NCBI RefSeq assembly: GCF_900100925.1
Contig: NZ_FNKO01000002.1
Coordinates: 1,302,001-1,366,000 of the forward strand
DNA: 64,000 bases
Direction of reading: 5' to 3'
Source: Actinopolyspora saharensis
GTDB taxonomy: Bacteria; Actinomycetota; Actinomycetes; Mycobacteriales; Pseudonocardiaceae
The stretch's first letter is position 1. Every line of letters starts with the position of its first letter. The position numbers and the translations under genes are program-made. Below, one piece after another: positions 8,428 through 15,209 of this stretch. The notes under the pieces were generated by a model. That model saw nothing but the letters and a program-made list of their open reading frames with translations. It was not told the DNA's origin and searched no databases.

Positions 8428-8682
8428 ATGCGTTCGTTCAAGCGTGCAGCCGTTGTCAGCGCCATGGCCCTTCCGCTCGCCCTGGGCAGCGCCGGGGTCG
8501 CCTCGGCCGACTCCCCGAAGGGCCACAAGGACCACGAGGGCGACAAGTGCGTGCACAAGTCCTGCCAGATCGACGTTGAAAAGCACGAGAAGAACGAGAA
8601 GAACAACAACTGGCTCTGGAACTGGACGAACTACACCGCGAAGTACGACACCAGCATCATCAACGCCGGAATCATCGGCTGA
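8428..8682 (+). CDS. Small secreted hypothetical protein
   Basis: 84 aa. A typical signal peptide (MRSFKRAAVV..., Ala-Ser-Ala-Asp cleavage near residue 27) leaves a mature peptide of about 57 residues. That peptide begins with a His/Lys/Glu-rich, metal-binding-looking stretch with two cysteines (KCVHKSC). It ends in an aromatic and hydrophobic tail (NNNWLWNWTNY, then SIINAGIIG). I do not recognise the family. The asparagine/tryptophan tail and small size recall surface peptides of aerial-growing actinomycetes, but that is speculation. AAAGG lies upstream of the ATG. The region before it is AT-richer than its surroundings and carries two palindromes, suggesting regulated expression. Confidence 0.65.
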   Translation: MRSFKRAAVVSAMALPLALGSAGVASADSPKGHKDHEGDKCVHKSCQIDVEKHEKNEKNNNWLWNWTNYTAKYDTSIINAGIIG

Positions 8683-9129: not shown

Positions 9130-9195
9130 TTATCGATAGTGTGCGTGTTGCTCGCATCCCGCGAGCCACGAAGCGCGATCGATCCGGTGGGAGAC

Positions 9196-10011
9196 ATGAC
9201 GCTGACAGCGACGAGGGAGCACCTTCGGACCAGCGAGCACGCGGTGGCGATGGGGGTGCTCGGCGTGTTCGTGGTGGCGTGCTTCGCCGCCGAGGCGGCC
9301 GGGCTGGGGAAGCTGCTGATCATCGCCGTGGTGTCCTGCCTGGCCATGGTCGCGGGGGCGGTGCTCGCACTGCGGAGGATCGTGAGCAGCAGCGCGCTGA
9401 CCTGGGCGTACGGTCTCGCCGCCGGGGCGATGGTGGCCAGCGCGTGCGCTTTCCTGCTTCCCACGGCGATCGAGCGGAACGCGACGCTGGGAGGTTTCGG
9501 CATCGCGGCCGGCGTGCTCGCCGGGTTCACGCTCCACCTCGCCGGTGCGGGCTTCGAGTTCCGCACGGCGCTGCTGGACGACTACGTGGTCCGGCTGACC
9601 GTGCACTCCGTGGCCGCCGGGTTCGTCATCGGGGCCATCTACGCCAGCATGCCGGGCATCGGACTGCTGCTGGGGCTCTCGATCATCTCGCACAAGGGAC
9701 CTGCCGGGTACGCGGCGGCGCGCTCGCTGCACGGTTCCGGGCGTTCGATCGTGCCGGTGGTGCTCCCCTCCTGCGGGATCGGCATCGCAGCGATCGCGGT
9801 CGGCCTGTTGGGGTGGCCCCTCTCCCCCGCGGTGACCGCACCGGTGTTCGGCGTGGCAGCGGGCCTCTTCCTGCACGTGGCGCTGGACTTCCTGGCACAC
9901 CTGGAAAAGAACCGTGCCACGGGAAGTCCCCGACTGGCGGCGCACGCCACCACGAGCGCGCTCGCCGGAGCCGCGGCCGTCGTGGGCGCCTGGGCGATCA
10001 CCGGAGGCTGA
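9196..10011 (+). CDS. ZIP-like metal transporter
   Basis: 271 aa, almost entirely hydrophobic, with about eight membrane segments. It has the spaced histidines of ZIP transporters in predicted helices: TVHSVAAGF, ISHKGPAGY, and LFLHVALDFLAH near the C-terminus. Some ZIP proteins import zinc or manganese; several archaeal and bacterial relatives are uncharacterised. The ATG at 9196 has GGTGGGAG just upstream; an earlier GTG at 9139 would add an unconvincing leader. The first segment is preceded by a short hydrophilic stretch. The cytoplasmic loop is short and lacks the His-rich tract of many ZIPs. A possible zinc-responsive operator lies upstream. Confidence 0.7.
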   Translation: MTLTATREHLRTSEHAVAMGVLGVFVVACFAAEAAGLGKLLIIAVVSCLAMVAGAVLALRRIVSSSALTWAYGLAAGAMVASACAFLLPTAIERNATLGGFGIAAGVLAGFTLHLAGAGFEFRTALLDDYVVRLTVHSVAAGFVIGAIYASMPGIGLLLGLSIISHKGPAGYAAARSLHGSGRSIVPVVLPSCGIGIAAIAVGLLGWPLSPAVTAPVFGVAAGLFLHVALDFLAHLEKNRATGSPRLAAHATTSALAGAAAVVGAWAITGG

Positions 10012-10295
10012 CCGGGTCGGTGGAAGCACTGGCGCTGGAGGTCCACACGGCCCCCGCGCCGAAGGTCACAACCGAACAGCGCGACCGTGAAAACCGCAGG
10101 ACAGCAAGGACAGGCCCCGTACAAGCGGGTACCCCTGCGCAACGCCTCGGTCGCACCCCTGGCGATGCGGTTCCCGAAGTCTCGTCACCTGATCGCGTTC
10201 CGGCTATCCTCGGTAACGACCTCTTCGCGCGGAGTCGCCACCCGGCGCCCCGGGAACTCGCGAAGAGGCAGGCTTCCGCTAAGAGGTGGTTCAGC

Positions 10296-11510
10296 GTGAG
10301 TGCTGATGTGGGCTACCGGATCAAGAAAGCTCGTCAGCGGGCCGGCATGTCGAGGCCGGTACTCGCCGGGCTGGTCGGACGCTCAGCCGAGTGGTTGAAG
10401 GCGATCGAGAACGGGCGGTTGCAGGTTCCGCGACTGCCGATGCTGGTCAAGCTCGCGCGGGCACTGGAGATCTCGGATCTGGCCGAGCTGACCGGGAACG
10501 GCGAAGCCGTCCCGGTGCAGACCTTCGCCGGAGGCGCGGAACACGCCGCATTGAGCGCAGTCCGAACCGCGCTCACCGAGTACCGACTCGGCGAACAGCA
10601 CCGACGGCCCAGCATCGTGCACCTGGCCGAACGACTGCGGGCGGCCTGGCAGCTCCGGCACTCCTCTCCCGACCACCGAAGTCAGATAGGTGCACTGCTG
10701 CCCGATCTCATCCGGGACTCGCAGAGCGCTGTGCGCACCTACTCCGGCGAGCAGGCCCGGGAGGCTCGTCGTGTGCTGGCTGGAGTGTATCGACTGAGTC
10801 AGTTCTACACCGCCTACCAGCCGGCCCCGGAGTTGGTGTGGCTGGTGGCCGACCGCGCGATGAGTGAAGCGCAGAACGCGGACGATCCTTACGCGATCGC
10901 TTCGGGCGCGTGGGGGTTGGTGCAGACGCTACGTGAATCCGGGCGCTGGGACGAGGCGTTGCAAGTGGCCGAGGACGGACGCAAGCAGCTCACTCCCCAC
11001 CTGTCCGAGGACAGCCCCGTGGACTGGCGCGGCTTGTACGGCGCGTTGTTCGCCGAGTCCGCACTCACGCACGCACGCGCGGGCAGGCACGGCCCGGCCT
11101 GGCGGGAGTGGGAGCGCGCATACGACGTCGCTCGCGAGCTCGGTCCCGCGTACCGACACATCCAGTCCTCGTTCAGCCTGCCCGTGATGAGCGCGCACGC
11201 CGTCAGCATCGCGGTCGACCTGCAACGGCCCGGCGAAGCGTTCCAGGCGCACACGATCACCCCGGAAGAGATCACCTCGGTGCCACGCCGCTCACGGCAT
11301 CTGATCGAACTCGCCCGAGCTCACCACAAGGACGGGAACCGCGCCGCCACGCTGGCCACCCTGCGGTGGGCCGAACGGACGGCACCGGAGACAGCCGCCT
11401 ACAACGGGTTCGCCCGTGACCTCACTGCCGGGTTGGTCGAGGCTCCTCCCGACGGTCAGCGCGAAGAAGCACGCACACTGGCCGACCGGTTGGGGCTGTT
11501 GGTCCGATAG
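10296..11510 (+). CDS. XRE-family regulator with TPR-like C-terminal domain
   Basis: 404 aa from a GTG with AAGAGGTGG 7 nt upstream. Residues about 8-65 form a Cro/CI helix-turn-helix (GYRIKKARQRAGMSR ... SAEWLKAIENGR). The rest is helical with tetratricopeptide-like units (e.g. GRWDEALQVAEDGRKQL, HARAGRHGPAWREWERAYDV). Such regulators commonly sit at the head of actinobacterial RiPP and signalling operons. Three tiny ORFs and a RiPP precursor follow in the same direction with touching or overlapping ends. I infer that it controls the graspetide cluster, possibly by sensing a peptide through the TPR part. Confidence 0.85.
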   Translation: MSADVGYRIKKARQRAGMSRPVLAGLVGRSAEWLKAIENGRLQVPRLPMLVKLARALEISDLAELTGNGEAVPVQTFAGGAEHAALSAVRTALTEYRLGEQHRRPSIVHLAERLRAAWQLRHSSPDHRSQIGALLPDLIRDSQSAVRTYSGEQAREARRVLAGVYRLSQFYTAYQPAPELVWLVADRAMSEAQNADDPYAIASGAWGLVQTLRESGRWDEALQVAEDGRKQLTPHLSEDSPVDWRGLYGALFAESALTHARAGRHGPAWREWERAYDVARELGPAYRHIQSSFSLPVMSAHAVSIAVDLQRPGEAFQAHTITPEEITSVPRRSRHLIELARAHHKDGNRAATLATLRWAERTAPETAAYNGFARDLTAGLVEAPPDGQREEARTLADRLGLLVR

Positions 11511-11789
11511 GTGACAGGTACAGTTCGTCCCTCTTCCGAAGCCGCAGTGGCCGATGCTTCGGGTATGGCAACGAGCTCAACCGATACCGGACGCGTTCAG
11601 GTGCGCTGCACCACCGTGGAATCCGGCGGGCAGGAATCATTCGTGCTGCGCCCCGCGGGCGAGCAACTCCGCATCGACACACCCACGGTGTTCCACCGAA
11701 CGAGGTGGACACCCGAACAAGCCCGCCGACTGCGAGACGCACTGACCACACTGCTCGACCGGCTCACCCCAGGCGGTGAAACCCGATGA
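11511..11789 (+). CDS. Small hypothetical protein in the graspetide operon (ORF a)
   Basis: 92 aa if the GTG directly after the regulator stop is used; an ATG at 11565 would give 74 aa and neither has a clear RBS. The conserved-looking part is the C-terminal half: RVQVRCTTVESGGQESFVLR, then HRTRWTPEQARRLRDALTTLLDRL, a short beta segment followed by a helix. I do not recognise a function. It overlaps the next ORF by four bases (ATGA), so it is translated as part of the operon. Confidence 0.6.
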   Translation: MTGTVRPSSEAAVADASGMATSSTDTGRVQVRCTTVESGGQESFVLRPAGEQLRIDTPTVFHRTRWTPEQARRLRDALTTLLDRLTPGGETR

Positions 11790-12013
11790 GCCGGCCGCAC
11801 ACGCAGTTGGCAACACTGCTGCGCCGGGCGCAGTGGATGCTGGACGAAGCCGCCTACAAACTCGGCGGCAAGCAGCTCCCGGACACCGACCGGCACGCCC
11901 TGGCCGAAGCCCTGGACGAGCTGGCCGCCGCACTGCGCGAGCACGCCGACGAACCCGCCGAACTCGCAGCCGGACAGCACGAGCCGCCCGCGATCGTGGA
12001 GCCCCAGCGGTGA
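11786..12013 (+). CDS. Small helical hypothetical protein in the graspetide operon (ORF b)
   Basis: 75 aa, mostly helical: ATLLRRAQWMLDEAAYKLGG followed by DTDRHALAEALDELAAALREHADE. It starts with an ATGA overlap on ORF a and ends in a GTGA overlap with ORF c, so translation is coupled on both sides. No signal peptide or catalytic motif. A small helical partner of the regulator or modifying enzymes is possible, but no function can be assigned. Confidence 0.65.
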   Translation: MSRPHTQLATLLRRAQWMLDEAAYKLGGKQLPDTDRHALAEALDELAAALREHADEPAELAAGQHEPPAIVEPQR

Positions 12014-12297
12014 GCGCTCGCCGCCCCCGCCCCTGTCTCGGAGGACACGGGGACCGACGACCGTGCCGACTGCCCGGCCACCGGCTCGCCCGCACCGGAA
12101 CGCTGCCGCCTGCCGCCCCTCGCGAGAACCGGCGGCCGGAACCACCGCGGTGGGCCGAACCGAACCCGACGCTGCTGACCCGCGTGCTGGACGGGCTGCG
12201 TGCCCTGCAGCCCGCGACGCGGAGCCGCACCCCTGGTTCTTCCCGGCTCGGACCGAACGAGCCGGGGACGAGAAGAGGAAGCACGGAAAGGAGCTGA
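12010..12297 (+). CDS. Small Arg/Pro-rich hypothetical protein in the graspetide operon (ORF c)
   Basis: 95 aa from a GTG overlapping the stop of ORF b. The first half is Arg/Pro-rich with two cysteines. A more protein-like motif follows, RWAEPNPTLLTRVLDGLRAL at about 49-68, and then a low-complexity tail that runs over the RBS of the precursor gene. The motif and coupling argue that it is translated, but composition is close to that of random GC-rich frames, so confidence is modest. Confidence 0.45.
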   Translation: MSARRPRPCLGGHGDRRPCRLPGHRLARTGTLPPAAPRENRRPEPPRWAEPNPTLLTRVLDGLRALQPATRSRTPGSSRLGPNEPGTRRGSTERS

Positions 12298-12299
12298 CT

Positions 12300-12587
12300 G
12301 TGACCGACACTCCCGAAACCAACCTGTTCCCCTCCCGCACACCGGCGGAAGGCCTGTCCACGGACGTGCCCAGCGGAACAGCCCTGCGTCCCTTCGGGCT
12401 GACTCGCGGCACCGCCCTGGCCGACGGGGAAGCGATGACCGACCTGAGCGAGCTGAGCTACGACCCCGAGCGACAGATCAACGTGGACTCAGCGGGTGAT
12501 CCGGTCGTGGCGAATCCGCTGTCCCAGCGAATGACCACGCACACCGACACCCGGTACGACATGCAGTGGTTCGTGGACAAGGACTGA
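12300..12587 (+). CDS. Putative graspetide (ATP-grasp target) RiPP precursor
   Basis: 95 aa from a GTG with AAGGAG 6 nt upstream. It matches the layout of the actinobacterial ATP-grasp target RiPP family. The leader carries a recognition motif RPFGLTRG (30-37) and a second conserved stretch YDPERQINVD (54-63). The C-terminal core, about 78-95, is dense in Thr donors and Asp acceptors: MTTHTDTRYDMQWFVDKD, with Thr79, 80, 82, 84 and Asp83, 87, 93, 95. Thr-to-Asp side-chain ester links made by the adjacent ATP-grasp enzyme are the expected modification, followed by aspartimide formation on one Asp. The ligase gene starts one base after its stop. No protease or transporter is adjacent. Confidence 0.85.
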   Translation: MTDTPETNLFPSRTPAEGLSTDVPSGTALRPFGLTRGTALADGEAMTDLSELSYDPERQINVDSAGDPVVANPLSQRMTTHTDTRYDMQWFVDKD

Positions 12588-12588
12588 C

Positions 12589-13554
12589 ATGCCAGCGCCT
12601 TCCGTTGTCGTCGTCACCCGCGAGCAGGACATCACCGCCGACTTGGTGGTGCGCGAGCTGCACGAGCGCGGCGTCGGTGTGGCGCGGTTCGACCTGTCCG
12701 ACTTCCCGGAGCGGATGCGCCAGGCCGCCTATCTGGTACCCGGTCGGGATCGCTGGACCGGAGCGCTACGCGGAACGCACCGAGATGTGGACCTCTCGGC
12801 CGTGCGCGGGGTGTGGTACCGCAAACCTGCCCCCACCTCGCCACATCCGAGTCTGACCGCAACGGAGTGCAACTGGGTGGCCGCCGAGGCCCGCACAGGT
12901 CTCGGCGGTCTGCTCGCAGCGCTCCCGGCCCGGTGGATCAACCGGCCCGACGCGGCAGCGCTCGCCAGTCAGAAACCCGCACAACTCCGAACCGCGGTGG
13001 CGTGCGGGCTCGACGTCCCCGAATCACTGCTGACCAACGACCCCGAACGCGCACGTGAGTTCTGCGCGGGCGGTCCGGTGATCTACAAACCGCTGGGTGG
13101 AGGGCCGAGCAGCGAGAACGGCCATCGCGTGGCACTGCGGACCACCACCGTGACCGCGGAGGAGATCACCGACGGGGTCGGCCGCACCACGCATCTGTTC
13201 CAACGACGGGTCGAGTGCGCCTACTCGGTGCGCTGCACCGTGGTCGGCGACCTCGTGTTCGCCGCACGGTTGGAGCTCCCGGCAGGAGTGGACACGGTGG
13301 ACTGGCGGGACTGCCACGACGAGCTCACCATCACCCCGATCGAAGTACCCAGTGCCGTCGGCGCGGGACTGCGGGCACTCATGACCCGGCTGGGTCTGGT
13401 GTTCGCCGCTCCCGACTTCGTGGTCGACCCCGACGGCCGCTGGTACTTCATCGGCGATCTCAACCCGAACGGCCAGTGGGCCTGGATCGAACACCTCCGC
13501 GAACCGATCACCCGCGCCCTCGCCGACGAACTCACCGCATCGGAGACCGCATGA
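12589..13554 (+). CDS. ATP-grasp peptide macrocyclase (graspetide synthetase)
   Basis: 321 aa, of the ATP-grasp ribosomal peptide maturase type. It should activate acidic side chains of the precursor as acyl phosphates and close them onto Thr hydroxyls. Seen: an N-terminal pre-ATP-grasp domain (VVVVTREQDITADLV), a conserved WYRKP at 77-81, and NRPDAAALASQKP at 118-130. The ATP-binding lysine segment VIYKPLGGG is at 164-172 and QRRVECAYSVRC at 205-216. The metal-binding end is DFVVD...YFIGDLNPNGQW at about 276-297. The usual family length is about 310-330. It starts 1 nt after the precursor stop, and its stop overlaps the methyltransferase ATG (ATGA). Confidence 0.92.
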   Translation: MPAPSVVVVTREQDITADLVVRELHERGVGVARFDLSDFPERMRQAAYLVPGRDRWTGALRGTHRDVDLSAVRGVWYRKPAPTSPHPSLTATECNWVAAEARTGLGGLLAALPARWINRPDAAALASQKPAQLRTAVACGLDVPESLLTNDPERAREFCAGGPVIYKPLGGGPSSENGHRVALRTTTVTAEEITDGVGRTTHLFQRRVECAYSVRCTVVGDLVFAARLELPAGVDTVDWRDCHDELTITPIEVPSAVGAGLRALMTRLGLVFAAPDFVVDPDGRWYFIGDLNPNGQWAWIEHLREPITRALADELTASETA

Positions 13555-14678
13555 CCCTCATCGACGACACCGCCCGGTACCGCGCGGCGCTCGCCGAGCA
13601 GCTGACCGAACAGCTGAACCTGTCGAGCACGTGGCGCGACGCCTTCCGGGCGGTGCCGCGTCACCTGTTCGCCCCCCGGTTCACCCTGTTCCACCCGCCC
13701 AGCGGGAGTTACACCGGCTACGACACCACCGACCCGGCGCAGCGCACCGCGGCGTTGTCCGCGGCCTACAGCGACGACACGCTGATCACCCGGTTCGACG
13801 AGAGCGGAAACGGCATCAGCTCCTCCACGGAACCGAGCCTGATGGCGACGATGCTGGAGGCGCTTGAGCTCGACCCGTCCCACCGGGTGCTCGAAGTCGG
13901 CACCGGCACCGGCTACAACGCCGCGCTGCTGTGCGAGGTCGTGGGCAGCTCGCGCGTCACCACCGTCGACGTGGACCCCGAGCTGATCGGCGACGCCCGC
14001 ACGGCACTGGACACCGCCGGATACGCACCGAGCGTGCGCTGCGGGGACGGTGCGGACGGACTCGCCGAACGGGCACCGTTCGACCGGATCATCGCGACCT
14101 GCGGAGCCGACCGGGTGCCGACCGCGTGGCTCGACCAGCTCTCCGCCGACGGGGCTGTGCTGGTCAACCTTTCCAGGGGGATCGCACTGCTGCGGCGCAC
14201 CCGCCCCGGCAGCGTGTCCGGACCGTTCCTCGACCGCGCCGGGTTCATGCCGCTGCGCTCGCCCTCCGAGCCGGCCCAGCCGCAGGCCGGACGCGTGGTC
14301 TCCGAGACCGGCGGGGCCGCGGAGACGACCCGCCCGACCACCTTCCCGGAGGGTGTGGACTTCTCCACGATGTCGCTGTTCACGTCCCTGATCGCCGCCA
14401 GGAGCAGGCTCGTGCGCACTGCCCGGGACGATCAGGTCACCACCTGGCGGTGGGTCCACCCCGCGTCCGGTTCGTGGGCGCGCGTCGAGCCGGTCAACCA
14501 ACGGGTCCACCAGGCGGGGCCCCGACGGTTGTGGGACGAGCTGGAACCGGTGCTGACCTCGTGGCAGCGGGCGAACCGGCCGGGCCTCGAACGGTACGGC
14601 ATCACCGCCCACCAGGACGGCACGCACGAGCTGTGGCTCGACACCCCGGAGGGGCTGATCACGGAGCTGCCGAGCTGA
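13551..14678 (+). CDS. PIMT-like O-methyltransferase of the graspetide system
   Basis: 375 aa. Residues about 20-230 resemble protein-L-isoaspartate O-methyltransferase (PIMT): FRAVPRHLFAPRF, the SSST substrate loop region, and SAM motif VLEVGTGTGYNAAL at 113-126. TVDVDPELIGDA and LVNLSR follow. An extra C-terminal domain of about 140 aa (VTTWRWVHPASGSW ... HELWLDTPEG) is not part of housekeeping PIMT but is typical of the ATP-grasp peptide maturase-associated methyltransferases. In characterised relatives the enzyme methylates one Asp of the cyclised peptide, which then collapses to an aspartimide. Coupled to the ligase by an ATGA overlap; last gene of the operon. Confidence 0.9.
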   Translation: MTLIDDTARYRAALAEQLTEQLNLSSTWRDAFRAVPRHLFAPRFTLFHPPSGSYTGYDTTDPAQRTAALSAAYSDDTLITRFDESGNGISSSTEPSLMATMLEALELDPSHRVLEVGTGTGYNAALLCEVVGSSRVTTVDVDPELIGDARTALDTAGYAPSVRCGDGADGLAERAPFDRIIATCGADRVPTAWLDQLSADGAVLVNLSRGIALLRRTRPGSVSGPFLDRAGFMPLRSPSEPAQPQAGRVVSETGGAAETTRPTTFPEGVDFSTMSLFTSLIAARSRLVRTARDDQVTTWRWVHPASGSWARVEPVNQRVHQAGPRRLWDELEPVLTSWQRANRPGLERYGITAHQDGTHELWLDTPEGLITELPS

Positions 14679-14966
14679 GCAGTCCCGAAGAGCACCCGCC
14701 GGGACCACGACCTCGCCGCGTTGTCGTCGACCAGAGCCATCCCGTCATCCACTGCAGTCAATCACTGCGCCGACGACAGCGCGGGAGACACCGAACACCG
14801 ACGCGATCACAACCGCGACCGCACGGGGCGAGGCCGGACCTCCCGCGTGAGCGGTGCTGCCCTGAACTCGGTGGTCGACGGTGGTCGACGGGGGCTCGTG
14901 AAAGTTGGCAGCAAATTGGCAACCGTCTCCGTGACCCCACGGAACCACCACCCCCGAACAGCAAAA
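14679..14966. other. Intergenic stretch after the graspetide operon
   Basis: No gene is recognised. It contains a short tandem GGTGGTCGAC duplication near 14870-14890. I see no duplicated tRNA 3' end that would mark an integration site. Confidence 0.4.
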
Positions 14967-14988
14967 AACCCCCAGCGAACCGGGGGTT
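14967..14988 (-). terminator. Terminator of tRNA-Arg(ACG)
   Basis: AACCCCC / GGGGGTT inverted repeat. On the minus strand it is followed by a run of T (A-run at 14963-14968 on plus), 22 nt after the tRNA 3' end. It could also act for the plus-strand graspetide operon, with TTT at 14987-14989. Confidence 0.7.
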
Positions 14989-15009
14989 TCAAGCTGTCTC
15001 GACCAGACG

Positions 15010-15082
<73 letters not shown>

Positions 15083-15096
15083 ATGTTCAATTGTGA

Positions 15097-15116
15097 ACTC
15101 CCACTGACGTGGGAGT
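15097..15116. other. Small hairpin between two tRNA genes
   Basis: ACTCCCAC-tgac-GTGGGAGT is a perfect 8-bp stem between tRNA-Ser(GCT) and tRNA-Arg(ACG). Possibly a processing or weak termination signal of a joint tRNA transcript. Confidence 0.4.
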
Positions 15117-15121
15117 CCCAG

Positions 15122-15209
15122 CGGAGGCTCCGGGATTCGAACCCGGGAGGGGGGTTACCCCTACCGCATTAGCAGTGCGGCGCCATAGACCAGACTAGGC
15201 GAAGCCTCC
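15122..15209 (-). tRNA. tRNA-Ser (GCT)
   Basis: Acceptor GGAGGCT pairs with AGCCTCC, discriminator G. Anticodon loop CTGCTAA between CCGCA and TGCGG gives GCT. Long variable arm; T loop GTTCGAATC. 88 nt. Confidence 0.95.

Follow-up and report, generated by a model that had tools for sequence, protein, structure and literature searches.

What peptide does an actinobacterium make when a precursor, an ATP-grasp ligase and an aspartyl methyltransferase are encoded side by side? The question is raised by a locus in Actinopolyspora saharensis, within a 64,000-nucleotide stretch of contig NZ_FNKO01000002.1 (positions 1,302,001 to 1,366,000, hereafter the window), where three closely packed genes span window positions 12300-14678. 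A preliminary description, made from the DNA letters, read them as a graspetide cluster whose product carries ester rings and an aspartimide. Here we show what the genes are, which lineage their core peptide belongs to, and how far its residues and their register are conserved. By analogy with the characterised peptide fuscimiditide, we think it probable, on balance, that these genes make a graspimiditide with two nested esters and an imide at Asp87 of the precursor. The locus is ordinary in its class and new in detail.

The tgmABC trio and its core lineage

The three genes lie on the plus strand. The first, for the precursor TgmA (12300-12587, 95 residues), has a GTG start preceded by AAAGGAG and scores 36.2 bits against TIGR04186 (cut-off 25). 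A single base separates it from the gene for the ATP-grasp graspetide synthetase TgmB (12589-13554, 321 residues, ATG start), which reaches 354 bits against TIGR04187 (cut-off 350). This in turn overlaps by ATGA with the gene for a PIMT-like aspartyl O-methyltransferase with a C-terminal extension, TgmC or PAMT (13551-14678, 375 residues; PCMT family PF01135, E 4e-31). All three proteins match the NCBI family for their part of the tgmABC system, the methyltransferase matching TIGR04188 over residues 14-359 at a score below the curated cut-off. The preliminary description had placed the three genes exactly. Its assignment of the class, the trio and the core is borne out by the profile searches, with TIGR04186 and TIGR04187 both over their cut-offs, and by the RPFG motif of the leader. 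Judged by sequence similarity of the precursor, the maturase and the leader motif, the locus belongs to group 13, and it is almost certainly a graspetide locus of that (graspimiditide) kind.

Two other systems were considered and rejected. An imiditide or pamtide consists of a precursor and a methyltransferase without a ring-forming enzyme, and here the ATP-grasp gene sits between the two. For the FxLD system, the methyltransferase match to TIGR04364 is 177.6 bits against a cut-off of 320. That no exporter or protease is found at the locus is not remarkable, because a 2025 paper gives the native proteases as undetermined for all graspimiditides (PMC12291112).

Within the precursor the motif RPFGLTRG starts at residue 30, YDPERQINVD at residue 54 and the core at residue 78. 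RPFG has been put forward as the motif for recognition (PMC13003496), and RPFGLT (residues 30-35; 12387-12404, plus strand) is invariant in all eight close precursors that were aligned. The core, MTTHTDTRYDMQWFVDKD, is the 18-residue tail from M1 to D18 (precursor residues 78-95; 12531-12584, plus strand). In eight close precursors, conservation is 0.78 in both the core and the YDxxxQ region, and 0.46 in the linker.

Reading of precursor tails yielded 21 cores with the pattern T/S7-x2-D10-x5-D16. The set includes the core of a decayed locus (G202), and two of its members (G048 and G054) are alike over the 21 residues compared. Asp10 and Asp16 are present in every one. Position 7 is Thr in 20 cores and Ser in one; position 3 is Thr in 16, Ser in three, Cys in one and Asn in one. 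Asp is found at position 18 in 16 of the 21 cores and at position 6 in 15. The residue after Asp10 is Met (10 cores), Ser (4), Asn (3), His (3) or Thr (1), and never Gly. Thr3, Asp6, Trp13 and Asp18 are each constant in the 14 cores closest to that of the window, 10 of which terminate at Asp18. The remaining seven have Trp at position 14 in six cases (Phe in the other), and six of them have Asp at position 20.

How widespread is this core type? The precursor search gave matches in 30 of 390 genomes of the family Pseudonocardiaceae. A search with a 12-row alignment gave matches in 25 of 397 genomes sampled from the order and 20 of 394 from the class, most of them with other core types; at most 13 candidates were scored per genome, which makes the size of the lineage a lower bound. 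Mining with TIGR04186 may overlook some precursors of this type, because three of six tested fell short at E 1e-5. Twenty loci, i.e. all but the decayed one, hold the precursor, ATP-grasp and methyltransferase genes, with the precursor directly 5′ of the ATP-grasp gene. Many were found through the precursor. Six (G049, G046, G048, G054, L051 and L052) were found by the ATP-grasp protein alone, so the precursors there are not a product of the search. In two loci (L172 and L276) the ATP-grasp match comes in two pieces in different frames.

Five of the ten genomes of the genus carry an intact locus of the window type: the window's own (G000), G049, G046, G048 and G054. G052 contains a decayed piece that shares the window's enzyme motif; in G050 and G051 there are fragments 24-44 residues long, and G053 has no match. 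A piece in G047 belongs to the type with a DG core, by its methyltransferase and its FLEIN motif. In the decayed locus of G202 (L171, 5905-7541) the core CGTSTDTRYDSQWFVDKD is intact before the stop codon, the frame ahead of it has no PFGL leader, and the ATP-grasp and methyltransferase genes show gaps and shifted frames. Another copy lies on the 85.5 kb S. pogona plasmid NZ_CP031144 (L161), adjoining DUF397 and helix-turn-helix (HTH) genes, so window-type copies occur on chromosomes and on a plasmid. A single genome, G001 (L172, L274, L275 and L276), has four precursors of this core type, and their C-terminal Asp patterns are all different.

Of 181 loci with a near-full ATP-grasp match, several of them duplicates, 51 entered a first tree, most of them selected for a precursor already noted there; all 12 rows of the window core type fall in one group, with support of 100/98. 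In a second tree of 54 rows the long branches L059 and L066 were dropped, L181 was exchanged for L280 (the same gene) and six loci were added. There, 16 of the 18 window-type rows form one group (98/94), within which a subgroup (100/96) unites the 12 whose cores come closest to that of the window. Both trees omit L172 and L276 on account of their split ATP-grasp matches. The same genome holds two TIGR04187 loci, and the second falls far away, among DG-core enzymes. Core pattern and ATP-grasp branch go together, with two exceptions.

Most synthetases of this core type also share a change in a metal-binding motif. In the window the E-x-N motif of the ligase reads G-D-x-N with one inserted residue (GDLN, residues 289-292; 13453-13464, plus strand). 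We compared 140 distinct motif strings, defined as matches to one regular expression, so that odd variants such as the LEVS of L052 go uncounted. GD[LV]N makes up 13 of these (12 intact loci of the tree group supply 11, and decayed relatives the other two), and none of the 140 carries it outside the window core type. Seven other strings (L197, L198, L199, L054, L205, L206 and L219) have Asp for Glu without the Gly insertion. An AlphaFold model of the enzyme has a predicted local distance difference test score of 90.8, and its nearest solved fold is PruB (9bou; Foldseek E 2.3e-29). A literature search on catalytic residues found no paper.

Predicted rings, imide site and alternatives

Which residues would be joined? 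Fuscimiditide has the stem TMRVT/DVEKD, an inner ester Thr7-Asp18, an outer ester Thr3-Asp22 and a loop from Tyr8 to Ser17 (PMC12291112). One class-level hit (L218) has the tail AGTMRVTYPDGQKPGQSDVEKD, which fits all of these published features, and from this fit we infer that it is the fuscimiditide precursor ThfA. The window core has Thr3-x3-Thr7-x2-Asp10 in exactly the same register. In the L218 tail, read as fuscimiditide, D10 is the sole Asp within the loop and would therefore be its imide site. Since the donor halves are in identical register, Asp10 of the window core, i.e. Asp87 of the precursor, is likely to be the aspartimide site here too; it is followed by Met88, not Gly.

The acceptor halves are D16 and D18 in the window, and D18 and D22 in L218. 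By the same analogy we favour Thr80 (T3) and Thr84 (T7) as donors and Asp93 (D16) and Asp95 (D18) as acceptors, and regard the full two-ester pairing as somewhat probable. If the pairing is as in fuscimiditide, the inner-ester loop would have eight residues in 21 of 21 cores, a length deduced from the spacing, and the stem would have three residues between the donors and one between the acceptors. Since sister cores with Asp20 would combine the same eight-residue loop with a symmetric 3/3 stem, the type found in the window appears to be a shortened version. Graspimiditide loops are given as 10-12 residues, and an engineered fuscimiditide with an asymmetric stem was well modified (PMC12291112). 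The preliminary description had suspected a new ring pattern, and this doubt was well placed: both the acceptor spacing and the predicted loop length are unlike those of the graspimiditides in the available literature.

We propose the following route. The leader, through RPFGLT and YDxxxQ, would recruit the ATP-grasp enzyme, which would phosphorylate core Asp side chains and link them to Thr hydroxyls. Two nested omega-esters would result, the inner one joining Thr84 to Asp93 (T7-D16) and the outer one Thr80 to Asp95 (T3-D18). The product would be a stem-loop with one Asp and one Trp in its loop, and with three residues on the donor side and one on the acceptor side of its stem. Once the peptide is cyclised, the methyltransferase would methylate Asp87 (D10) in its loop, and the Met88 nitrogen would close the aspartimide. 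The calculated monoisotopic mass is 2288.98 for the core, and would be 2252.96 with two esters and 2234.95 with the imide as well. Removal of the leader and export would fall to enzymes encoded elsewhere. More tentatively, we suggest that the cores form a natural lineage of contracted asymmetric stem-loops (T7-D16 around an eight-residue loop, T3-D18 closing on the C-terminal residue), with the imide before Met, Ser, Asn or His and with G-D-x-N in most synthetases, a topology and active site undescribed for the class in the papers available.

Several observations weigh against this proposal. Asp6 is kept in all 14 close cores and yet has no role in the scheme. A plain antiparallel hairpin would not bring the outer pair into register (the positions of T7-D16 sum to 23, those of T3-D18 to 21); T5 would pair with D18 in register in the window, but relatives vary at position 5, with Q, S, Y, T or C. 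Thr or Ser is absent from position 3 in two cores (Cys in L052, Asn in G001b). Stem-size changes in fuscimiditide other than the asymmetric one were mostly poorly tolerated (PMC12291112), and the metal motif of the ATP-grasp enzyme is altered. In the second tree L278 and L280 lie outside the group, weakly placed (the fork is 90/64 for L278), despite their core pattern, and the G569 enzyme (L181/L280) is outside it in both trees; pattern and enzyme branch are therefore not perfectly matched. The methyltransferase, too, departs from expectation. The WXXXGXP motif described for its C-terminal domain (PMC13001092) has as its counterpart here WQRANRP (14562-14582, plus strand), which keeps W and P and replaces Gly by Asn; several relatives keep the Gly, and in the A. 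pretiosum enzyme the motif is degenerate. Its TIGR04188 score of 319.9 bits (E 2.5e-95) does not reach the cut-off of 380. This shortfall says little: with about five candidates scored in each genome, only 68 of the 390 family genomes have a match over the cut-off, and the DG-type second locus of the same genome encodes a methyltransferase that also misses it, at 329.4 bits.

Could the same class of peptide have another topology? The rings might be tandem TxxD pairs (T3-D6, T7-D10), the outer ester might involve either the C-terminal carboxylate or Asp6, or the two esters might cross (T3-D16, T7-D18). The TxxDTxxD spacing is indeed kept in the close cores (Thr7 in 13 of 14, Ser7 in one), a side-chain-to-C-terminus ester has been postulated for SsfA (PMC10787088, PMC13001092), and an end at Asp18 is common among the close cores. 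However, Asp6 is missing from six of the 21 cores, for which reason it was rejected as a ring residue, and Asp10 and Asp16 from none. The L218 tail, read as fuscimiditide, has T7xxD10 as well, and there D10, the sole loop Asp, would be an imide and not an ester. The characterised graspimiditides, moreover, are described as stem-loops (PMC13001092). We regard a different topology as unlikely, though worth keeping in mind. With the rings as proposed, the methyltransferase might also act on Asp6 (Asp-Thr) rather than Asp10. In lasso imidides it is the first Asp of DTAD, the one ahead of Thr, that carries the imide (PMC13001092), and Asp6 precedes Thr7 in 13 of the 14 close cores and Ser7 in the other; but the loci of the six cores that lack Asp6 keep the methyltransferase, whereas every core has Asp10, at a position within the predicted loop. 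We consider Asp6 an improbable target.

The enzyme itself raises further alternatives. With GDLN in place of E-x-N, ring formation might be crippled, and the locus would then yield either no product or a linear peptide on which only the methyltransferase has acted. The copies in G202 and G052, both with a GD-x-N motif, are gapped and frame-shifted, and G050 and G051 hold fragments. The motif nevertheless recurs in 12 intact loci from several genera, and donor and acceptor residues are retained. The differences between the window and G049 favour third codon positions in both the precursor (3/8/17 at the three positions) and the ATP-grasp gene (28/13/75). We consider a crippled enzyme highly improbable. 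Another reading, which a weak similarity to RimK could suggest, takes the ATP-grasp protein for a ligase of non-peptide substrates that lies between the other two genes by coincidence; in our view it is next to impossible. It is contradicted by the TIGR04187 match over cut-off, by the adjacent precursors and by VIA-align, whose best nine rows are all graspetide synthetases, with RimK after them. A grouping with non-peptide ligases, and relatives without precursors, were among the findings that the preliminary description had named as speaking against its reading; we found graspetide synthetases to be closest instead, and a precursor adjoins all six relatives found by the ATP-grasp protein alone.

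Genomic setting of the operon

A regulator and three coupled tiny open reading frames (ORFs) had been noted ahead of the trio. Their positions hold, while a role of the ORFs in the pathway is not supported. The coupled run, on the plus strand, starts with an XRE-type HTH regulator of 404 residues (10296-11510; PF13560, E 2.1e-12) and continues with s92 (11511-11789), s75 (11786-12013) and s95 (12010-12297). Codon-position differences to G049 are 13/13/29 in s92 and 11/7/22 in s75, both of which look coding, and 20/17/23 in s95, which is doubtful. Only the C-terminal PNPxxLLxRVLxGLRAL of s95 recurs, and the second graspetide locus has this motif. Relatives of s92 are found in 11 of the 390 family genomes, namely all 10 of the genus, with 4-11 copies each, and G202. 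Of 30 copies retrieved, four have a precursor-like PFGL/PWGL motif no more than 1.5 kb away, and 12 are close to a match to the regulator of the window; one such match, 84% identical in G051 (L256), has no PFGL/PWGL motif in reach.

The s75 frame, too, is found with s92 elsewhere. The s92-s75-s95 set occupies the window's own chromosomal site in G050, G046 and G053 (L240, L241 and L243). In G050 and G053, with s75 copies 65% identical, it lies upstream of a 96-residue ORF and a gene for a DddA-like deaminase (PF14428, E 4.6e-21 for the G050 copy), and the regulator match in G050 is just 27% and on the opposite strand. As a multi-copy, genus-wide set found with other cargo, the tiny ORFs were rejected as pathway or partner proteins. 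They are a portable front with unlike cargo, not biosynthetic parts. The regulator is swapped in G049, where synteny is kept, as is the operon: tblastn with the window's regulator gives no match in that genome, and a 336-codon frame with an HTH-like start takes its place. An association of regulators with group 13 is already known, since DUF397/DUF5753 regulators are reported as possibly co-occurring with such loci (PMC13097080); DUF397 lies beside the S. pogona copy.

The locus lies beyond the 3′ end of a tRNA-Arg(acg) gene (15009-15082, minus strand), and synteny in the genus breaks there. In a comparison covering window positions 9139-15209 and L238-L243, the alignments of G050, G048 and G053 end at 15009-15011. 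G048 has an integrase and a capsid gene at this site, and G053 and G052 have integrase pieces. In G047 the flanks are about 1 kb apart, the operon is absent and a match to window positions 10160-10335 is kept. Given this comparison and the regulator swap in G049, the operon is at an exchangeable site and has a swappable regulatory front. The arrangement suggests integration at the tRNA-Arg gene. The argument is one from synteny, because the 22 bases at the tRNA 3′ end have no second copy in the window, and no direct repeats of at least 18 bases are found in 9900-15120.

A simple consensus scan found no sigma-70-like promoter, and the promoter and terminator scan gave one terminator-like site, on the minus strand; shuffles averaged 2.0. 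Further upstream, the window encodes a small protein of 84 residues (8428-8682) with a signal-like N-terminus; no Pfam family matches it over cut-off, and G052 and G046 have similar ORFs close to the corresponding region.

Relation to known graspimiditides

How new is the detail? Fuscimiditide (ThfA/ThfB/ThfM, from Thermobifida fusca, group 13) has the same trio, the RPFG motif, the Thr3-x3-Thr7-x2-Asp10 register and two Thr donors before its Asp acceptors. Its loop has 10 residues and its stem is a symmetric 3/3, whereas we predict eight and 3/1 in the window. It has Asp-Gly where the window has Asp-Met, and the window has a Trp in its loop. The L218 ATP-grasp protein, taken as ThfB, has the motif FLEVN in contrast to GDLN and lies outside the window group. 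Amycolimiditide, albusimiditide and SsfA(BM) are of the same class, with an ester-ringed substrate followed by a PIMT homologue (PMC13001092). As described, they are set apart from the window by Asp-Gly in place of Asp-Met; we predict two side-chain Thr-Asp esters for the window core, compared with four esters in amycolimiditide and five postulated for SsfA(BM). The locus thus departs from the four characterised graspimiditides, going by their available descriptions, in predicted loop length, in the residue after the imide Asp and in the metal motif of its enzyme; the predicted stem symmetry is a further difference from fuscimiditide.

Solved structures and the same genome offer further comparisons. 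PruB of Streptomyces coelicolor, the best solved relative by Foldseek, has FLECN as its metal motif, unlike the GDLN of the window. The nearest solved structure to the methyltransferase by sequence is 1dl5, and no PDB chain matches the core. The second graspetide locus of the genome (G000:C1, L176 6300-10020, on another contig) has the same tgmABC trio and its own s92- and s95-like small ORFs. It differs in its NNDGDEG core (Asp-Gly), its other ATP-grasp branch (41% identity) and its canonical FLEINPGGQY. The methyltransferase of such trios ranks second by weighted frequency among the families associated with ATP-grasp loci (PMC8939145).

In every characterised graspimiditide the methylated Asp is followed by Gly, and a review gives Ser, Thr, Asn, Met and His among the possible residues at this place (PMC13001092). 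The window core may already be in one of the eight core clusters of a large 2023 graspimiditide survey (Choi 2023), which that review cites. Six motif strings of the window core type had no match in a search of literature text, figures and supplements excluded, and we found no description of the window ring spacing or enzyme motif in the available portions of the graspimiditide literature.

Linking graspimiditides to biological function is described as the bigger challenge (PMC13001092), and the window lineage leaves it unsolved. If the proposed structure is true, a natural lineage with a short loop and without Gly would reveal to what extent loop size and the Gly residue matter for imide formation. 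Such a lineage would further provide a natural asymmetric stem to set beside the engineered one, and a supply of graspetide synthetases whose metal site is changed, of use in work on peptide cyclisation.

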